Assembly: GCA_002887195.1 (NCBI GenBank)
Contig: PJAB01002074.1
Span: forward strand, 1 to 10,623
Length of the DNA: 10,623 nucleotides
Origin: Chrysochromulina parva
Taxonomy: Eukaryota > Haptophyta > Prymnesiales > Chrysochromulinaceae
Direction: 5' to 3'
Numbering within the stretch: position 1 is the stretch's first letter; each line of letters opens with the position of its first letter. Positions 449 through 10,623 of this stretch are shown here, in pieces. Below the pieces are notes generated by a model that worked only from the letters and a program-made list of their open reading frames with translations, did not search any database and was not told the origin of the DNA. A program made the position numbers and the translations under genes.

Positions 449-3400
449 TCACAGCTCTTCTGGATCGATGGCCGGCAGCTCTTCCTCGAGTGCGGACGCG
501 ATCTTTTTCATCGTCCTGTCCAGCTTTGCTTGCTCTGCCGCGGAGAGCTCCTTGTCCGCGGCGAGCTTCGGCGTCACCGTGAAGGACACCTGGCGCTTGA
601 TGATGAACTCTGCGCGCTGGCGTGCGCGCTGGCGGCGGCGCTTGTCGAGCTCTTTCTTGTCGATCCTGCCGTCGTGGTTTGAGTCGAGCCGATCGAGGAT
701 GAGGCTTAGAAGCATTTCGAGCCATGGCGCAAGAGGCTGATCTGAGGTCTCCTCACGGTCAAAGGACATTTCGGTGCCGCGCTTCTCAATCAGCACGCCG
801 CCCTCGTGCTTGCCAGCCGCGATCTCGTCGAAGAACTGCTTGGCGGTGCGCGAGCCATACTTGGCGAGGATCTCGGTCGTCGGCAGCGGATGGCGAGTGC
901 ACACCCGGCCGAGCGCCTCACAAAAGTCGATGTACGTGAGCCTCGTGAGCTTATGGCGCCGCTTCAGCTCGTCGGACACAAAGGTCTGCGACCAGACGAA
1001 GCAGAGGCGCTCGTCGAGCCGTGAGAGGTAGCCCATCCACATGCTCGCTCCTTCGTCGGGGCTGTCGCGCGTGTCGAGCAGCCCCGCGTCGAGGCAGAAG
1101 CCATGCCACTCGTCGAGCGACATCGTGGGCTCGGGGGTCTTCAAGTCTAATTGCAGCGGATCGCCTTCGATGGTCGCGTAGTACTCAAAGAAAGTACGGA
1201 GCACAGGCTCGAAGCGCTTGAGGACGTCCGCCGACGGCTTGGTGTAGAGCCGCTTGCGACGGAAGACCTCGGGGTCGTGTGTGGCGCCCTTGGGCAGGTT
1301 GGGCAGCAGGTCACGCTGCAGGAAAGTCTCGAGCGCCTCGGACACATCGGGGATCGTGCCGTCACGCACGTACTTGGAGATCGAGATGCGCACGAGGCAC
1401 TGCATGAACTCGAAGCGCAGCAACGCAGCGTCCGGGTTGAGGCGCTCGATTTCGCGGTCCTCGAGAGTCTTGGAGGCCGCCTCATAATTGGCCGAGGCAA
1501 AGATGCGTGTGAGCTCCTGAACGTTCAAGTAGGCGGAGTCGATGTCAACGACGCGCACGTCGCGCAGCAACTCGAAGAAGGTGGACAACCCCATCGCGTA
1601 CCCATCGTGCGCGTCGCCCGTGGCGCAGTAGTACGCGTGGCACGCGTAGATGGCAGTCGCGTGCTGCGCGAGCACCTCGCGGATCTTGCCGATCTCGGCG
1701 TCCACGCCCGCGAGCCCGAGCCCCTCGTGGTCCTCCCGCGCGATCAATCTGCGGAAGCGATCGGTGTTGCAGCGGCTCCAATCGATCTGGAAGGCGCGGC
1801 TCCTGACTTGGCTCGTATTGTAAAACGAGTGCGCGTCGGAATGAGTCCTGCGCGGCGCGAAGACGGAGCGGTCGAGTTCGAGAGAACCATCCTTGGCAGA
1901 CTTGCTCGGCTCCTCGCCCGACTCGTCCTTTGGCACACAGTGGAAGAGGATGGGCTCGGATACAATCTCGCCAAACATGGGTGGGAACGTGCAGTCCTCG
2001 AGCAGCGACTTACGGGGCTGCGGGGGTGAGAGGACCGGCGATTGGGTGAGCTTGGGCACGTCTCGCTCCGTCAGCATCGGCGGCATCGGCGGCGCCGGCA
2101 GGGTCGTCGAGCTCTCACCACACTTGAGCTGCCCGAGCGACGTCGGCAGTTGACCGACCGGTTCTCGCTCGGGCACGCGGCAGTTGCGCGGGTGGCTCGT
2201 ATGGTACAGCCGCAGCACCTTGCCCTCGGTACCCTCGAGAGGGTACGACGAGAAGTTGTCGTTGCCGATCCTCGAGCCTGCCACACCAATCCAGCTGAAG
2301 AGCTTCGCCTGCGGGCCCGAGCGCTCGGCGCGGCCCTCGGGGTTCCCGGAAAAGGAGAAGCGCGGTGTGTACTGCTCAGCCTCGGGCAGGATGACCTTGT
2401 AATCAGGGCGCGCCTCGTTCCCTTTTTGGAGGTACGCCTTCTCCCATGGCTCTAGCGTTGCAGCGAGCTCCGGCTTGATGGAAGGCACCCCCTTTTGAGT
2501 GATCTTGATCTCAACCACGGGCGGCCTCCACTGGTTGCCCACCCGGGCCGTCTCCTCCGCCTCCGCCTGCTTGGCCAGCGCAGCCGCCTTCGCTATTCCG
2601 AAAAGACCGCCCTGCACAGCCCCAAGCCCGGCCTGCACCGCCGCAGACGCCGCCAGCTCCGCCTTCTGGCGCACCGGCGCGGGACCTTCATATCGCTTGG
2701 GCTTCGTCTTCGCGCCGCCCACCGCACCCGCTGCCGTCGCGGGGCGCGCCGCCTCCGCCGCCGCCTTCTCGTCGGCATCCTTTGCAAATGACTGCCTCCG
2801 CTTCAGATCATCGAGGCGCGCGGCGCTCCCTGCTGCCTCTTTCTCGGCGTCCGAGAGCTCATCGCTGCCACCGCCCTTCCCCTTCTTCTTCCCCTTCTTC
2901 TCCTTCTTCTCCTTCTCGATCACAATCTCGCTCTCGAGCTCCTTCATCCTCGCTTCCAAGCGCTTCAGCTCCTCCTCCTCCCCGGCCGTGAGATGCCCTT
3001 CTGCGGCTGCGCCGAGGCCGAGGCGAAGAAGGCTGCCCATCGCGGGCTTTCGCAGGATCGGCATCGACGCGGAGAGGCCAAGGCCAGGCGCTGCCACGGG
3101 CGCCGCCACGAGCGCCGCCTCGGTCGCCGCGACGGATTGGCTGCGAGGCGCCATGTCGGGCGCCGTGTCGGTCCCGGCACCGCCCTTGGCTGCTAAGATG
3201 TGCCCAAACCTTTTGGTCGTCGCCGGCGGCGGTGTCGCCGACGGCTTGAGTGGCAGTGCCGGCCCACTGCCCCCCTTGGAGACACCGCCAGGCGCGCCCC
3301 CGGCCTTGGCCCCCGCACCACCCGGCGTCTTAGGACGAGCGTCGTGTTGGGCACCACCCGGCGTCTTCAGGCGAGCGTCACCCGCCTGACTAGCGCCGTG

Positions 3401-6400
3401 TTGGGCGCCAGGCGCGGGCGTGCCCGGCTTGCTGATTGGCGTGAGCGGGACAACGGGCCGCTTGGGCGCGCCAGGAGGCACTCCCATCGGAGGCTCGAGT
3501 GGCCTGCGCCAGACGTCGAGAAAGTTTCGACGCATCAGCTCCTGCAGTCCGGCACTACTGGTGCTCGGGCGCAGCGCCTTGCCCGCCGCGCCCGCCGGCA
3601 GTGCGCCCTGCTCCTCCGGGGGCGGCGCCAGGAGCGAATAGTCGACCTTGGGCTTCAGGAGGCGACGGCGCGAGGCGGCACCGCCGCGCAGCTTGTCGGG
3701 GCCTTTGGCCTTCTCGAGCAGCTCGAAGAAGGTCTCGAACTCCTGTCGCGAGACGGCGTCGGAGCCGTCCGAGTCCATGACCTTGAACAACTCATCGAAG
3801 GCGTTGATCTGCTCCTGCAGGTCGACGCCCGTGACCGAGTTCTTCGCCGTGCCGCTCAGCGGGAGGAGAGGGAGGAGCAGCTCACGCACCTGTGGGGAGA
3901 GAAGGGCGCCGTGGTGAGCACTTGCATGCACCCGACGGGAGAGGGAGGAGCAGCTCACGCACCCGCTCGTCCTGACGAAACGCCCGAATCATCTCGAGGC
4001 GGGTGAGATCGCCGTCGTCGTTCGCATCCATGAGCGCGAACGCCGCACGTGCCAGAAGCACCTGCTGCGGCTCCTCCCCTGCATTGAGCTCGGCGAGGCC
4101 CTCGATGTCCTCGCCCTCGGCCGCCTGCTGCTCGGCCTTCTCAGTCTCCTCCATGGAAGCGATCCAGTCGAGGTAGCGCTGGCGAGCGTCGGGCGGCGCC
4201 GCCTTCTCAGCCGGCGCGACGGAGGCAGTGCTTGGCTTGCGTCCCAGGCCACCGCCCGGCGAACCGGGTGCTGACGGAGTCGCACCCTCTGGCACGGCGG
4301 CGGCGGGCGCAGGCGCGGCGGCGGAGAGAGGCGGCGGCTTGAGGAGCGGCTTGCTCGGCGCGTTCGCGAGACCGTCTATCCTAAGCGGGCCCCCAGACCA
4401 CACCGCCGTCTTGAGCGAGAGCTCAGCCACGTACATAGGGTTACGGTTGGCCGGGTGCGTGGCGAGGTTGTAGAGCGTCTCTCCCGCCATCTCGCCCAGC
4501 GGCCGCAGCGCCCCTTCCCAGCCGAACTTTTCGCTCGTGTGCCGGATCTCGAGCAGCGAGCTCAGCCCGTGCACTTGCACCGCCACCTGGGCGCAGCGGG
4601 CGCCCGACAGATTGAGCACCGCATTGAGCGCATCGCGTAGCAGCTCGGGAGCGTGCCCTTCATAATGCGCTTGCGCTGCGCGCGCGTGCGCCGGCCGCTG
4701 ATCGTGCTCCTCGAGCACGTCTTCACTAACGGCCGTCGTCATCGTAGGAGGAGGGGGCGCACCGCTCGGCACCAGTGAAGCGCCGGCTTCGGACGGCACG
4801 TCATACGGCGGCACGCTGAGCACGGTGAGGAGCGCGGCTGCCTCGGTCCGCAGCACGGCGCATACCTTCTCGGCCGTCTTAATCGACATGAGCTGCTGCT
4901 GGTTGCCGTACTGCGCCGAGCGCGCTATCCCTCGGCAACCGACAGCGCGCAGCTTGGGCGACGCGTCTGAGAGCAGATGGACCATCAGCACATCCAGCCC
5001 GCTGGCCGGCGCATGGCGGGGGCTGCTCTCAGCTGCCGGCTGCTTGGGCGACGCGTGTGCCTTGTACGCTGGGTGGGACGAGTCGAGATCCTCAGGATGA
5101 TGAACGATGGTCTCTACCTGGTGGAGGGTGCACGCCGCCGTGATCCGGTCGGCGGTGGCACCCATGTCGACTTCACCGCGAGCGAGCGTATGCAGCGCTT
5201 GCGTCACACCAAACTGCGCGAGCTGCCCGATGAGGGCGGAGCCGCTGGTGAGCATGATCGAGATGGTGCCGAGTGAGGCCTTGCGCAGCTGCTCGTGAGC
5301 CGTCTGCTGCACCGCGCTGATCAGCGCGGCGGACGCGAGGCCCAGGGCCACCGTGGCGCTCGCCGGGCGCACGCATAGCTGCCAGAGTGCGATCGCGCAC
5401 CACGTGGCCAGAGGCGCGTGCGCGCCCTCGAGCTTCGCCTCGCTCACCTGTGGGAACAAGAGGGGTGGGGGCGCCGTGGTGAGCACTTGCATGCGAGCCA
5501 ATCGGAAGGGAAGCGCCCTCGAGCTTCGCCTCGCTCACCGCGTGCGCGAACGCCCGGCTCAGCGCGTCGGTCACCCCGATCTCGAAGAGGAGATCGCAGA
5601 GCGCGTTGCTCAGCTGCCCCTTGGAGGGCCCTTGGTTCGCATGCAGCCAGAAGAGCGCCGCGAGGCTCATGCCTCCTGTGGGCGAGAGAGGCAACTCGGT
5701 GACCAGCCGCGACAGAAGCACGCGGCTCAGGGGTGTGAAGGTTGCCGTGCTGGAGGGGCCGACGCCGGACGTGGACGGTCGCTTCGTGGCGAGATGGGAG
5801 ACGGGCCGAGAGACTGGTTGAGGAGGGGGCTGCGAGGCGGCGGCGGCGGCCGCTCGCGTGGCGTCGTCTGCGAGCGCCTCGTGCCCGTGCGCGACGAGAG
5901 TGAGGAGGGCGGCGGCCAGGTGGCCATGTAGCGCGCGCACGCTCCCGGTCAACTCGACGGTGCAAGGGAAGGGCTCCTCGGTGGAAGGAGTGCCTTCCTT
6001 TGCGCTGCTACCCTTGGCGCCACTGCCGCCCGTGACGGCGCTGCCGCCCGTGACGGCGCTGCCAGGCCTGGCCGCACTACCGGCAAGGGCTGAGGGCACC
6101 GCTTCCCGGCTCGCAGGCCGGCTATCGGGCTTCGGATGATAGTGCGCCTGCCGGTCAGCCTCCATGCGCACCACGCCCATCAACTCGATGATGCGCGCGA
6201 TACCGTTGGCGCGGCGCAGGGCGAGGACCGCCACCTTGCTCAGCGCCACGAGCGACGCGCCATACACCTCGCACGCGCGCCAGCCTGCCGCGGGGTCCGT
6301 TGGCTTGACCCGCTCGACGGTGTTTCGTTTGAATTGGGCCAATTCGTCAATCGGCTTCGGAGGCGCGGGCTTGATCGCCGCCTCGAGGGAGCTGAGCAGG

Positions 6401-8508
6401 TCGATCGCCACCGTCTTGGCCGCATACAGCGACACGCCACGCAGCGCGCCGTGGATTTCGAGCTTCGTCGGCTCGTCGCCCGTTGGGTTGGCTTCGGCCG
6501 CCTTGACCTGCGAGCGCCGCTTTTGCGCGCCGGCGCCCGGTAAGGGGATCCCGGGTGACGACGGCGCGGGGATCTGCACGGGGGCGTCGTCCGGCTCGCC
6601 CGGCGGCATCAGGTGTGCCTCCGCACATGCCTCCACAAAGGCGCGGTATTCGAGCACACTCGGTGGCTCCACCACGCCCGGCGACGCCTCCACCGGCGCC
6701 TCGGCCGGCGCGGCCGCCGCTGCGGCCACGTCGCCGGCCTCGGCCTCGCCCTCTGGCGACGGCGCGGTCTCAGCAGCCGTAGGCGGCGGCGGAGGAGGTG
6801 GTGGAGGATAGATCGCCTCGAGCAACGCGAGGCCGTCGTGGCCCTGCTCACCAGTGGGGGCTTGCAGCGACGCGAGCATTCCAAGCGCCGTCGTGCGCAG
6901 CTTGGCGCCGTGCTTGGTCACCAGTTTCGTCAAGCATGCATTCATCTCGAGCACGGTCGAGGGCACGTCCGCAGGCGTCGGTGCGGCCCGTGAGGCGCCG
7001 GGCGCGGCGACCCCTACAGAGGACGCGCCGTCGGGCTTGTACCCTACCGGCAGCAGCACGTTGGTAGAGAGGATACCCGCCCTCTTGGGCTTCTGTGTGT
7101 CGGCATCCCACTCGTCCGTGGCGTGGGCGTGGCAGCCTCGCTCCGGGGAGAGCTCCAGGAGCGCGCGCGTGAGCCACAGCCAGCCCGAGCTCAGGAGCAG
7201 CGGCGTGTGTCGGTGCAGATGGCCGAGCATGGACCAGATACAGCCGATGAGACTGCGCAGCAGCCGACAGCTAGCGTCCGCGCCACCAAAGCCCTCGGCC
7301 GGCGCACCCGCGCGCACGTAGCGCTGCACCGTGAGCAGCAGAGGGATCGAAGCGGCGCGCAGCGCGCCCACCAGCTTTGGCAGCCCCTCGAGAATGCGAA
7401 GGTCGCTCGCGCGCGCGGGATGCAGCCTTACGCGTGCGAGCGCAAAACACACCAGGTCAGCAGCTTGCTGGCGCGTGCTCGCGTCGGTGAGGCCACTCGT
7501 GCATGCCAGTCGCACGAGCTGCTCGAGGCCGCCCTCAAGCAGCGACTTGCACACGGGCGGCGACACCTCGGCCGCACGCGTGAGCAGCGCCGCGCACGCG
7601 GCCTTGAGCGGCGCCGGGCTGTGCTCGGCATGTGCCTCGAGCACAGGCAGGAGGCGCAACGCGACGCTCGTGCGCTGGAAGGCGCGCTTGCCAGTCTCGC
7701 ACGCGAGGAGGGCCAGGAGACCGCCCGCATGCCACACGCGCTGCACGAGGATCGCGTACCCAGTGCATGCCACCGCGCGCGCCGCCTGCAGGTCGTTTGG
7801 GCTCGGCTCGCTCGGCTCAGCCGCCTCGTCCTCGTCGTCGAGCGCCGCCTGGGGCGGCAGCAGCACCTTGTACGGCGCCGAGTGGGTGTTCGACCGGCGC
7901 AGCCGCCGCGAATTCCCGCCGGCACCCTCGGCGGCCGCCGCCGCGTCACGCGCCGCTTCGACGCAAAGCTCCGCCGAGCGCGGCTCAGGAAGGCTGTTGG
8001 GCAGCAGCGCCTGCAGGAGCGCTGGCACCAGGTCGCCCACGTTCATGCGCGCGAGCGTCGGCTCGTGTTCGGCGAGTCGCCAGATGGCCGCGGCCGCGAT
8101 ACTCTGCACGCGCAGCTCTGGCGAGCGCAACGCTGCCGCCGCCGCCTCGAAGAGCGAGTACGTCATGTACCGGTGGTTGAACGGTTGGCACGCGAGCTCC
8201 CACAGGCCATGAATCGCCTGGTACTTGAGCTCGACGTCGGAGGAGGCCAGCCCGCAGCGAATGCTCTCGATGGCCGCCTCCAGCACGTCCACACGCCGAG
8301 CCGTATCGGCCACTTTGTGCGCCTCGAAGGCCGCGAGCACCTCATCCGAGGTTCGCAGCGGCACGTTCTCGAGCAGGATCGTCATCTCCGTGCCAAAGAG
8401 TCGTGAGACCACGTCGCGCAACTGCGGGAGCGTCGGCGGATTCGTGCCCGCCATCGTGTGCTCGATCAAGCCTGCTTCCTTCGACTCGAAGCGGAGCGCG
8501 AGCGACAT
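449..8508 (-). CDS. Giant ARM-repeat / EF-hand protein, three exons (2631 aa after splicing)
   Basis: Exons on the minus strand are 8508-5539, 5447-3963 and 3889-449 (990, 495 and 1147 codons, the last including TGA). All joins are phase 0, and the three frames link only if both introns are removed. Residues about 85-160, 250-400 and 1270-1340 are Leu/Ala-rich helical repeats of ARM/HEAT type, e.g. LKYQAIHGLWELA and RVQSIAAAAIWRLAEHEP. Nine prolines lie at 568-576. EF-hand loops are D1464-E1475 (DANDDGDLTRLE, canonical), D1524-E1535 (DSDGSDAVSRQE, Asp where Gly is usual at loop position 6) and D2554-E2565 (DSNHDGRIDKKE, canonical). Residues about 1612-1782 are Pro/Gly/Ala-rich linker, 1787-1862 a Lys/Glu-rich coiled coil, 2180-2497 a globular aromatic-rich block, and 2563-2584 a strongly basic segment. 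ATG at 8508 is chosen for its ACC-ATG context and because composition changes upstream; ATG at 8454 is an alternative. The architecture suggests a Ca2+-responsive scaffold (inference). I do not recognise a named family. Confidence 0.88.
3315..3380 (-). repeat. 36-bp coding duplication in the large gene's linker
   Basis: Positions 3315-3331 repeat at 3351-3367, followed by a near match, giving two 12-residue units ARLKTPGGAQHD and ARPKTPGGAGAK. This is a small in-frame expansion in a disordered linker. Confidence 0.75.
3865..3890 (-). repeat. 26-bp direct repeat at intron 2, exon-side copy
   Basis: Positions 3865-3890 are identical to 3938-3963, offset 73 bp, exactly the intron length. This copy crosses the 3' splice site and encodes VRELLLPL at the start of exon 3. 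Identity breaks at both ends. Confidence 0.92.
3890..3962 (-). mobile_element. Intron 2 (73 nt), introner-like
   Basis: The GT-AG intron starts GTGCGTGAGC at 3962 and ends TCCCCACAG at 3890, between codons for Arg1485 and Val1486. Its first 25 nt repeat the start of exon 3 exactly; with the preceding G, the repeat is 26 bp. The body between repeats is only 47 nt and contains the same 26-nt block (3904-3929) as intron 1, then a short pyrimidine tract. The candidate branch-point A is at 3915, 25 nt from the 3' end. The insertion lies in the linker between the first and second EF-hand loops. Retention would add about 26 codons and then stop, leaving one EF-hand. Confidence 0.87.
3904..3929 (-). 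repeat. Introner core block, copy in intron 2
   Basis: This is a perfect 26-nt match to 5469-5494, in the same orientation relative to splicing. A chance 26-nt identity between two introns of one gene is not credible, so the two copies share a recent origin. Confidence 0.93.
3938..3963 (-). repeat. 26-bp direct repeat at intron 2, donor-side copy
   Basis: This is the second copy of the 26-bp repeat, holding the last base of exon 2 and the first 25 bases of intron 2, with donor G|GTGCGT. Its sequence is unrelated to the intron 1 repeat apart from the initial GGTG. That is expected if the repeats are copies of the target rather than part of the element. Confidence 0.92.
5422..5448 (-). repeat. 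27-bp direct repeat at intron 1, exon-side copy
   Basis: Positions 5422-5448 are identical to 5513-5539, offset 91 bp, exactly the intron length. This copy crosses the 3' splice site and encodes the first residues of exon 2 (VSEAKLEG). Identity stops at both ends (5421 against 5512; 5449 against 5540). It reads as a target-site duplication or duplicated exon start. Confidence 0.92.
5448..5538 (-). mobile_element. Intron 1 (91 nt), introner-like
   Basis: The GT-AG intron starts GTGAGCGAGG at 5538 and ends TTCCCACAG at 5448, between codons for Ala990 and Val991. Its first 26 nt are a perfect copy of the first 26 nt of exon 2; with the preceding G, the repeat is 27 bp. The 64-nt body between the repeats carries a 26-nt block (5469-5494) identical to one in intron 2, followed by a pyrimidine-rich tract. 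A candidate branch point is TGCTCAC with its A at 5480, 32 nt from the 3' end. Length is not a multiple of three, so retention would shift the frame and end the protein near residue 1111. An element inserted with target-site duplication is inferred; a plain tandem duplication is less likely because the body is shared with intron 2. Confidence 0.87.
5469..5494 (-). repeat. Introner core block, copy in intron 1
   Basis: This 26-nt block, starting GCATGCAAGTGCTCACC on the minus strand, is identical to 3904-3929 in the other intron. It includes the SphI-type palindrome GCATGC and the branch-point-like CTCAC. Flanking body sequence differs between the introns, so this is the shared part of the element. 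Confidence 0.93.
5513..5539 (-). repeat. 27-bp direct repeat at intron 1, donor-side copy
   Basis: This is the second copy of the 27-bp repeat, spanning the last base of exon 1 and the first 26 bases of intron 1. It contains the 5' splice site G|GTGAGC. The exon-side copy has the same GGTGAGC, so the donor motif was probably already present in the target exon. Confidence 0.92.
6025..6060 (-). repeat. Perfect 18-bp tandem duplication in exon 1
   Basis: The 18-bp unit GCCGCCCGTGACGGCGCT occurs twice without a gap. It encodes a repeated Ser-Ala-Val-Thr-Gly-Gly type unit in a Ser/Gly-rich linker near residues 815-830. Confidence 0.85.
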
Positions 8509-9303: not shown

Positions 9304-10623
9304 TCACATCTTCCAGCCCTGGCCGCCCATATTCATCCCGCCCATCTGGTTGGCGAGGTTGCCCATGCCGCCGCCCATGCCGCCACCCATGCCGCCGGGC
9401 ATGCCGCCACCCATCTGGCCTGGCATACCGCCCATGCCACCCATCTGGCCGGGCATGCCGCCGCCCATCTGGCCAGGCATGCCTCCGCCCATGCCGCCTC
9501 CCATGCCACCCATCTGGCCGGGCATGCCGCCACCCATCTGGCCGGGCATGCCGCCGCCCATCTGGCCGGGCATTCCGCCACCCATCTGGCCTGGCATACC
9601 GCCGCCCATGCCGCCGCCCATGCCGCCGCCCATCTGGCCAGGCATGCCCGGGCGAGGCGGCATCCCACCCATCTGGCCGGGCATGCCGCCGCCCATGCCG
9701 CCGCCCATGCCGCCGCCCATGCCGCCGCCCATGCCGCCCATGCCGCCCATCTGGCCGGGCATGCCGCCGCCCATGCCGCCGCCCATGCCGCCGCCCATGC
9801 CGCCACCCATCTGGCCGGGCATGCCGCCACCCATCTGGCCGGGCATGCCGCCGCCCATGCCGCCTCCCATGCCACCGCCCATGCCGCCACCCATCTGGCC
9901 GGGCATGCCGCCACCCATCTGGCCGGGCATTCCGCCGCCCATCTGGCCTGGCATCCCGCCGCCCATGCCGCCGGGCATGCCGCCGCCCATCTGGCCTGGC
10001 ATACCGCCGCCCATGCCGCCGCCCATCTGGCCAGGCATGCCCGGGCGAGGCGGCATCCCACCCATCTGGCCGGGCATGCCGCCGCCCATGCCGCCGCCCA
10101 TGCCGCCGCCCATGCCGCCACCCATCTGGCCGGGCATTCCGCCGCCCATCTGGCCGGGCATTCCGCCGCCCATCTGGCCGGGCATGCCGCCACCCATCTG
10201 GCCGGGCATTCCGCCGCCCATCTGGCCGGGCATTCCGCCGCCCATCTGGCCGGGCATCTGGCCGCCCATCTGGCCGGGCATCTGGCCGCCCATCTGGCCG
10301 GGCATGCCGCCACCCATCATACCGCCTTGCATCGGCATGCCGCCCATTTGGCCTCCCATGCCACCCATGCCACCCATGCCACCGGCAGGGGCATTGCCGA
10401 ACATCGACATGATGTCGTTCTTCTTGTCCACGGGCGGTGCCGGGGCCGGCGCCGGCGCGGCGCCGAAGTCGACACCTCCAAAGCCTGCCCCGAAGCCGGC
10501 GTTTGCCGCCGGGGCCGGCGCCGGCGCCGGCGCGGGCGCATCGAACGAGCCGAACATGTCGACACCCGCCGGCGCCTTCGCGGGCGCCGGCGCGGGCGCA
10601 TCGAACGAGCCGAACAGGTCGAC
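9304..10623 (-). CDS. Met/Gly/Pro/Gln-rich C-terminal part of a protein, 5' end outside the window
   Basis: The frame runs from the right edge to TGA at 9304-9306 (439 residues visible). The ATG at 10557 is internal, because the frame stays open upstream and encodes another copy of the same repeat. Order: two copies of a 20-residue unit (VDLFGSFDAP and VDMFGSFDAP plus Ala/Pro), a GFGAGFGGVDFG stretch, a charged segment KKNDIMSMFGNAP, then about 330 residues built from MPGQMGGG and MGGG units, and a tail ending NMGGQGWKM. The repetitive part should be disordered. DLFGSF and KNDIMSMFG resemble short motifs in the tails of endocytic adaptors and SMAP-type ArfGAPs, whose tails are also Met/Gly-rich. 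This is only a guess, as the catalytic or lipid-binding domain would lie outside the window. No intron is seen in this part. Confidence 0.8.
   Translation of the reverse strand, partial: VDLFGSFDAPAPAPAKAPAGVDMFGSFDAPAPAPAPAPAANAGFGAGFGGVDFGAAPAPAPAPPVDKKNDIMSMFGNAPAGGMGGMGGMGGQMGGMPMQGGMMGGGMPGQMGGQMPGQMGGQMPGQMGGGMPGQMGGGMPGQMGGGMPGQMGGGMPGQMGGGMPGQMGGGMGGGMGGGMGGGMPGQMGGMPPRPGMPGQMGGGMGGGMPGQMGGGMPGGMGGGMPGQMGGGMPGQMGGGMPGQMGGGMGGGMGGGMGGGMPGQMGGGMPGQMGGGMGGGMGGGMGGGMPGQMGGMGGMGGGMGGGMGGGMGGGMPGQMGGMPPRPGMPGQMGGGMGGGMGGGMPGQMGGGMPGQMGGGMPGQMGGGMPGQMGGMGGGMGGGMPGQMGGGMPGQMGGMGGMPGQMGGGMPGGMGGGMGGGMGNLANQMGGMNMGGQGWKM
9611..9726 (-). repeat. 116-bp identical block, copy 1 of a 393-bp offset duplication
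   Basis: This block is identical to 10004-10119. It contains the unique GMPPRPG interruption, so the identity is not just a product of the short repeats. It marks a recent larger duplication within the array (131 codons apart, frame preserved). Confidence 0.85.
10004..10119 (-). repeat. 116-bp identical block, copy 2 of a 393-bp offset duplication
   Basis: This is the second copy of the block at 9611-9726, again holding the PPRPG-coding interruption with the same codons. The flanks differ in the number of 12-bp units. Confidence 0.85.
10523..10623 (-). repeat. 60-bp tandem repeat encoding VD(L/M)FGSFDAPAPAPA
   Basis: Two copies at a 60-bp offset (e.g. TCGAACGAGC at 10541 and 10601) differ by one base over about 40 bp (ATG against CTG in the coding strand). 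More copies may lie beyond the right edge. The repeated peptide suggests a duplicated short linear binding motif. Confidence 0.85.

Follow-up and report, generated by a model that had tools for sequence, protein, structure and literature searches.

How new spliceosomal introns originate is a long-standing question, and one gene of the haptophyte Chrysochromulina parva poses it in concrete form. The window analysed here, the whole 10,623-nt stretch of contig PJAB01002074.1 (assembly GCA_002887195.1), contains a long coding region with two introns that have an internal block in common and lie between direct repeats of their own exon, from which an earlier note had proposed that both are copies of one introner-like element. 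Is this a coincidence of two old introns, or the trace of a process that makes introns? We consider it probable that both, here called introns A and B, belong to a large introner family and are recent copies, each produced by insertion of a cassette that duplicated its target.

Two introns built from the same parts

The host gene, which has EF-hand matches, lies on the minus strand at 449..8508, with its start at 8508 and its stop at 449. With 5448-5538 and 3890-3962 cut out, three different frames become a single open reading frame of 2,631 aa with both junctions in phase 0, which bears out both the reading of two introns in one long coding region and the exon ends proposed for them (5539/5447 and 3963/3889). 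Since the inserts are 73 and 91 nt long, neither a multiple of three, their removal is needed for the protein. When the exons were scanned separately against Pfam, two EF-hand models scored barely above the cut-off in the exon-3 product, and no EF-hand was recognised in the exon-1 product. Just past the 3' end of the gene, at 15-159, lie four copies of a TGGTTCAAACCAC-like dyad repeat; the adjacent minus-strand frame at 9304-10557 carries long GMPGQMGG-type repeats and gave no Pfam match.

Intron B (5448..5538, minus strand, 91 nt, GTGAGCGAG...TTCCCACAG, phase 0) opens within a 27-nt target copy (5513..5539), delimited by direct-repeat comparison, which is the source of its 5' splice site. A 5' segment (5495..5512) follows and then the 26-nt core (5469..5494), located by repeat comparison and genome matching, whose CTCAC, branch-point-like by the branch-point consensus, we take to mark the branch-point region. 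A pyrimidine tract with the acceptor (5449..5468; CACA, with its G at 5448) leads into the second target copy (5422..5448), identical to the first at 27 of 27 positions. Intron A (3890..3962, minus strand, 73 nt, GTGCGTGAG...CCCCACAG, phase 0) repeats this order on the same strand: a 26-nt target copy (3938..3963), again found by direct-repeat comparison and again the source of the 5' splice site, 8 nt of filler between target copy and core (3930..3937), the core (3904..3929; repeat comparison and genome match), tract and acceptor (3891..3903; CACA, with its G at 3890) and a second target copy (3865..3890), identical at 26 of 26 positions. The shared block agrees at 26 of 26 positions between 3904-3929 and 5469-5494, and the direct repeats at both introns are perfect, as had been described.

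The core marks a genome-wide family

A search with 25 nt of the core (up to 3 mismatches) returned 851 + 855 = 1,706 matches in the 45-Mb, 2,199-contig assembly and none in the reversed control; the shared block is therefore not due to chance. The family around it spans the genome and has several variants at its ends, and the possibility that the block is confined to the host gene, which would have counted against an introner, can be set aside. The exact 23-nt core occurs in no bacterial or archaeal genome searched. By its own protein content the assembly is probably that of a haptophyte: it has 58 light-harvesting matches, and of four such proteins compared, one (L136) shows a clear haptophyte-type order of hits, with 310 bits to 9jj8_A (whose chain sequence 9uen shares), 294 to 8z11_A and 259 to 9uh3_G before a fall to 179. 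The E. huxleyi photosystem I paper (PMC12716418) assigns 8Z11 to the haptophyte I. galbana and mentions 9UEN; for the other three proteins the multi-domain chain 9vfj_11 ranks first. A PsbO match was also located, and an 18S motif had no match at up to 1 mismatch. We analysed 165 copies from 128 loci and the window, including 108 with an exact core, which are a sample drawn mostly from the first 100 of the core matches listed. An acceptor is present in 88 of these 108, followed directly by GT in 70 of the 88. The first 14 nt of the exon are repeated upstream (up to 3 mismatches) in 63/88 acceptor copies, against 1.6% in a mismatched control. The introns are 57-121 nt long, and the 63 with a repeated exon start are split 23/23/17 over the residues modulo three.

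The expectation that core matches would be flanked by direct repeats held for 61 of the 108 exact-core copies, in which the repeat across the core exceeded the 99th percentile of 535 mismatched pairs, and not for the other 47. Among 71 resolved copies (non-tandem, repeat score of at least 15, core with up to 3 mismatches, so that duplications below 15 fall under the cut-off), the target duplication measures 15-46 nt, with a median of 25, and is identical over the aligned stretch in 37. The inserted cassette is 32-74 nt long in 70 of the 71 and 106 nt in one. In 36/90 exact non-tandem copies no repeat reaches the cut-off; in these it is shorter or has diverged, contains gaps, or is missing altogether. 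At four loci (L053, L031, L104, L004) the target copy and cassette recur in tandem, a pattern to be expected from later recombination or slippage of the duplications. At L028, L040 and L058 the acceptor reads CCCTAATTAG in place of CCCCACAG, which sets off a cassette sub-lineage.

Direct repeats of this kind recall intron gain in which exon segments bearing AGGT are simply duplicated in tandem and nothing mobile is involved. That route is documented (PMC3443670, in the text available) and likewise draws its splice signals from a duplicated AGGT-containing exon segment, and in the repeats here the start does coincide with AG|GT or adjoin it. The documented introns, however, are described without an inserted cassette, whereas in the resolved copies a cassette that is not target sequence separates the repeats, and it contains the shared core, matched 1,706 times in the genome. 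The shared core refutes plain tandem duplication as the sole explanation, and we give that explanation almost no credence.

Architecture of the cassette and its variants

A typical copy consists of a target copy beginning with GT, a variable piece, the core, a pyrimidine tract, CACAG and a second target copy; the variable piece measures 0-38 nt in 60 of 61 copies and 70 nt in one. From this order, the cassette is predicted to comprise the GCATGCAAGTGCTCACCACGGCGCC core with the branch-point region, the pyrimidine tract and the acceptor, the duplicated exon presumably serving as donor and 5' half of the intron. As far as sequence can establish it, the architecture is that of an introner made of an intron 3' half and a long target duplication, apparently a variant not previously described.

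Not every copy has this form. Copies of a GTACG class begin with GTACGTTGATTGCC... and take their AG from the target copy; their 5' module has 210 genome matches, and it is their 5' end that is fixed and their 3' side that varies. Core-only copies are without tract and acceptor, and where a repeat is readable their insertions measure 45 (L013), 42 (L017), 69 (L030), 78 (L049) and 45 nt (L095), all divisible by three; this count includes short repeats at L013, L017 and L095 (scores 12, 8 and 12) and leaves out L014, L043, L104, L116, L124 and one copy of L099, which are tandem or could not be resolved. Acceptor copies end in CACAG or a variant of it, core-only copies in GGCGCC and others in CCCCAC.

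These ends bear on whether the family spread like a SINE, by target-primed reverse transcription of an RNA ending in CACAG at a nicked site, which would leave truncated 5' ends, filler where the 5' end joins and target duplications of varying length. Acceptor copies look much as such a process would leave them: the 3' end is CACAG or a variant, the 5' end varies, and the duplications are long and differ in length. The genome does contain reverse-transcriptase frames. A fixed 3' end with a variable 5' end is true of acceptor copies, however, and not of core-only copies, with their GGCGCC or, in others, CCCCAC ends, nor of the GTACG class, fixed at the other side; moreover, selection for splicing could by itself fix a CACAG end. 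Five reverse-transcriptase stretches were recognised (L129-L133), with RVT_1 as the sole family; in the 2-3.7 kb examined around each, neither a further Pfam domain nor the core was found. We therefore regard SINE-like spread as unlikely, at roughly one chance in four.

A non-autonomous, MITE-like DNA transposon is a still poorer candidate, and we hold it to be improbable. Such an origin has been proposed for most introners, and target-site duplications (TSDs), terminal inverted repeats or both were recorded in 59.2% of 130 introner families scored in a 2022 survey (PMC9860276, in the text available). Our 71 resolved bodies, however, have no excess of terminal inverted repeats (mean longest match 2.99 nt versus 3.16 nt when shuffled, with a match of at least 6 nt in 1/71), and their duplications are long and variable instead of having a fixed short length.

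A second intron family with the same architecture

Repeat pairs without the core in the sampled loci led to a second family, whose bodies are decamer arrays (TGATGACCTC/TGATTGCCTC) that end in CCCTCATCAG and lie between long target duplications (for example L041, L102, L108 and L006). The TGATTGCCTCCCTCATCAG-type end followed by GT has 2,346 genome matches (up to 2 mismatches) and none in the control. At second-family acceptors in the sampled loci the exon start is repeated upstream in 21 of 38 cases, against 11% in the control. Two unrelated bodies thus have one architecture in common; at L089, a variant of the first core is joined to a second-family acceptor. A generic scan for core-free introns was noisy, with 55 pairs against 27-107 in controls, so that only the acceptor-anchored counts are used as evidence.

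Orientation, joins and the route of insertion

Strand was called with a retrained codon model, an earlier one having been too weak for the purpose. Among non-tandem resolved copies, insertions are in frame in all 8 called antisense (score < -10) and in 19/50 called sense (Fisher p 0.0012), figures to be read with the strand errors of the model, which called 10/63 solid copies antisense, and with three of the eight (L091, L097 and L120) bearing an acceptor and so possibly miscalled. With tandem copies included, 9/13 antisense and 25/72 sense copies are in frame (p 0.03); at a looser threshold of 5, tandems left out, the counts are 13/16 and 21/61. A strand-free version of the test gave 19/33 in frame among copies that are not precisely spliceable and 21/54 among those that are (p 0.12). 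Together these counts lend moderate support to the view that the cassette inserts in either orientation and that selection acts afterwards.

The copies called antisense speak against another origin, in which an excised intron is reverse-spliced into a different mRNA and returned to the genome by reverse transcription and recombination. Reverse splicing has been put forward for the introners of Micromonas (PMC3879977) and of fungi (PMC9860276), in the parts of those papers available, but it would yield sense copies only and no 26-nt target duplication, whereas some copies here look antisense and the core-only copies are not whole introns. We think it very improbable for this family.

In a set of seven copies in which core and target copy adjoin directly, all seven have microhomology of 1-5 nt, with a mean of 2.4 against a null of 0.53. 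The 5' segment of intron B, together with the adjoining GCATGC, matches the genome (up to 3 mismatches) in two places only, the window and C604, where the tract is similar as well. The 16-mer GAGGTGGAGTCTGATT, partly target-derived in L021, is found among the sampled loci only in L021 (twice) and beside the core of L096, and L002 and L007 have 96 aligned nt in common, which take in the intron together with roughly 17 nt of exon. From these three cases, existing introns seem to template new copies, with variable end points.

We therefore favour, tentatively and at a little under even odds, a route in which existing introns would serve as templates for the cassette, copied either in the repair of a staggered break or through template switching; the joins would carry microhomology, and selection would then sort the products. 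The inserted piece would consist of a variable 5' piece, the GCATGCAAGTGCTCACCACGGCGCC core with its branch point, a pyrimidine tract and CACAG, and insertion would leave a stretch of exon, of median length 25 bp, at both flanks. Where the target begins with GT, its upstream copy could become the donor and 5' half of the new intron, the cassette contributing branch point and acceptor. With the donor from the target and the acceptor from the cassette, we propose that splicing would remove exactly one target copy plus the cassette and leave the protein unchanged. Selection would then keep spliced copies or, in antisense orientation, those that preserve the frame. That the core introns are spliced we infer from frame and repeats.

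A more general formulation is possible, though we hold it with less conviction than the route itself: repair of staggered breaks may capture the 3' half of any spliceable repeat, be it the core cassette, the decamer arrays ending in CCCTCATCAG or chimeras, duplicate some 15-50 bp of exon and so build thousands of introns without a transposase, with selection turning sense copies into introns and antisense copies into in-frame peptides. Purely opportunistic repair alone, however, does not predict a single dominant core.

Presence and absence of introns A and B

How recent are the two introns? A public protein, P0001 (1,638 aa, 98% identical), has the exact spliced sequence and runs uninterrupted through site A. 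It starts with M at the exon-2 GTG, which suggests to us that the gene was called on unspliced DNA without regard to introns; as such a call, its continuity at site A points to a near-identical genome without intron A. On these grounds intron A appears to be a recent presence/absence difference, the direction of which is unproven, since its absence could also reflect loss by recombination between the repeats. Intron B, on the other hand, is read through by P0003, encoded on another contig and 99% identical, just as in the window; it is thus common to both contigs, and its recurrence at the same place makes it unlikely that the introns are an assembly artefact.

P0002, a distant homologue at about 35-37% identity that we assume to be another intron-unaware call, has no break in its alignment at either site, though at B the alignment is weak, and so does not appear to share both intron positions; P0004 (63% identity in its best segment) ends near site B and is uninformative. 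The supposition that the gene was intronless until recently is thus upheld for site A, by the 98%-identical protein, and only weakly for site B, where the 99%-identical contig has the intron. The reading of both introns as introner-like copies gains support from the genome-wide core and from the continuous alignment of P0002.

Comparison with known introners

The family resembles described introners in three respects: near-identical introns in many genes (1,706 core matches, with acceptors in 88/108 sampled exact-core copies), a splice site supplied by the target (63/88 copies and both window introns) and a new intron where the coding sequence is otherwise continuous (intron A against P0001, and P0002 over both sites). 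In the available text of a 2022 survey (Gozashti et al. 2022, PMC9860276), introners are likewise many similar introns at new positions that carry one splice site and obtain the other from a target duplication. Their TSDs, however, are 3-9 bp long, and 4 bp in Chrysochromulina sp., as opposed to a median of 25 bp here. The survey pipeline moreover looks for similarity near both splice boundaries, which is a criterion of the pipeline and not a definition of introners; the window class is similar largely in its 3' half, and such two-sided similarity is absent from it, the 5' half being target sequence.

For the other systems we again rely on the parts of the papers available. The introner elements of Amoebophrya (PMC7789003) are repeated introns with direct repeats at the exon/intron boundaries, as here, but with direct repeats of 3-5 nt, inverted repeats of 8-20 nt and mostly non-canonical introns. 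Those of Micromonas (PMC3879977) are also repeat introns that invaded novel positions massively, but reverse splicing is proposed for them and the main text does not use the terms 'direct repeat' or 'target site'. New introns of Daphnia pulex have been attributed to staggered double-strand breaks (PMC4202315); their repeats are shorter, at 4-12 bp, and the text describes no shared family core. A 2025 survey of mixed introns gives repeats of 4-30 bp, with a mean of 11.4 and a similarity of 71-100%. The direct repeats reported here exceed the published lengths for the introners that the earlier note cited. Among freely accessible papers, searched by title and the opening lines of abstracts, we found no description of this family; the genome may be part of the 2022 survey.

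A single genome with some 1,700 core matches and 2,300 second-family end matches, in which two unrelated bodies have one architecture, the target duplication is still visible in over half of the sampled acceptor copies and near-identical assemblies differ in at least one intron, opens the birth of introns to direct study in this alga. Introners with short duplications hardly allow integration to be told apart from selection for splicing; with abundant copies and long duplications the two become separable, integration being read from duplication length, microhomology and orientation.

One further occurrence of the core lies on a phage-like IMG/VR contig (L134:4371-4545; primase and terminase matches), where an exact core with acceptor stands at the contig end and adjoins (ACGAACCCTG)n lying between 36-nt imperfect repeats. 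This contig is perhaps a chimeric assembly, transfer being the alternative.
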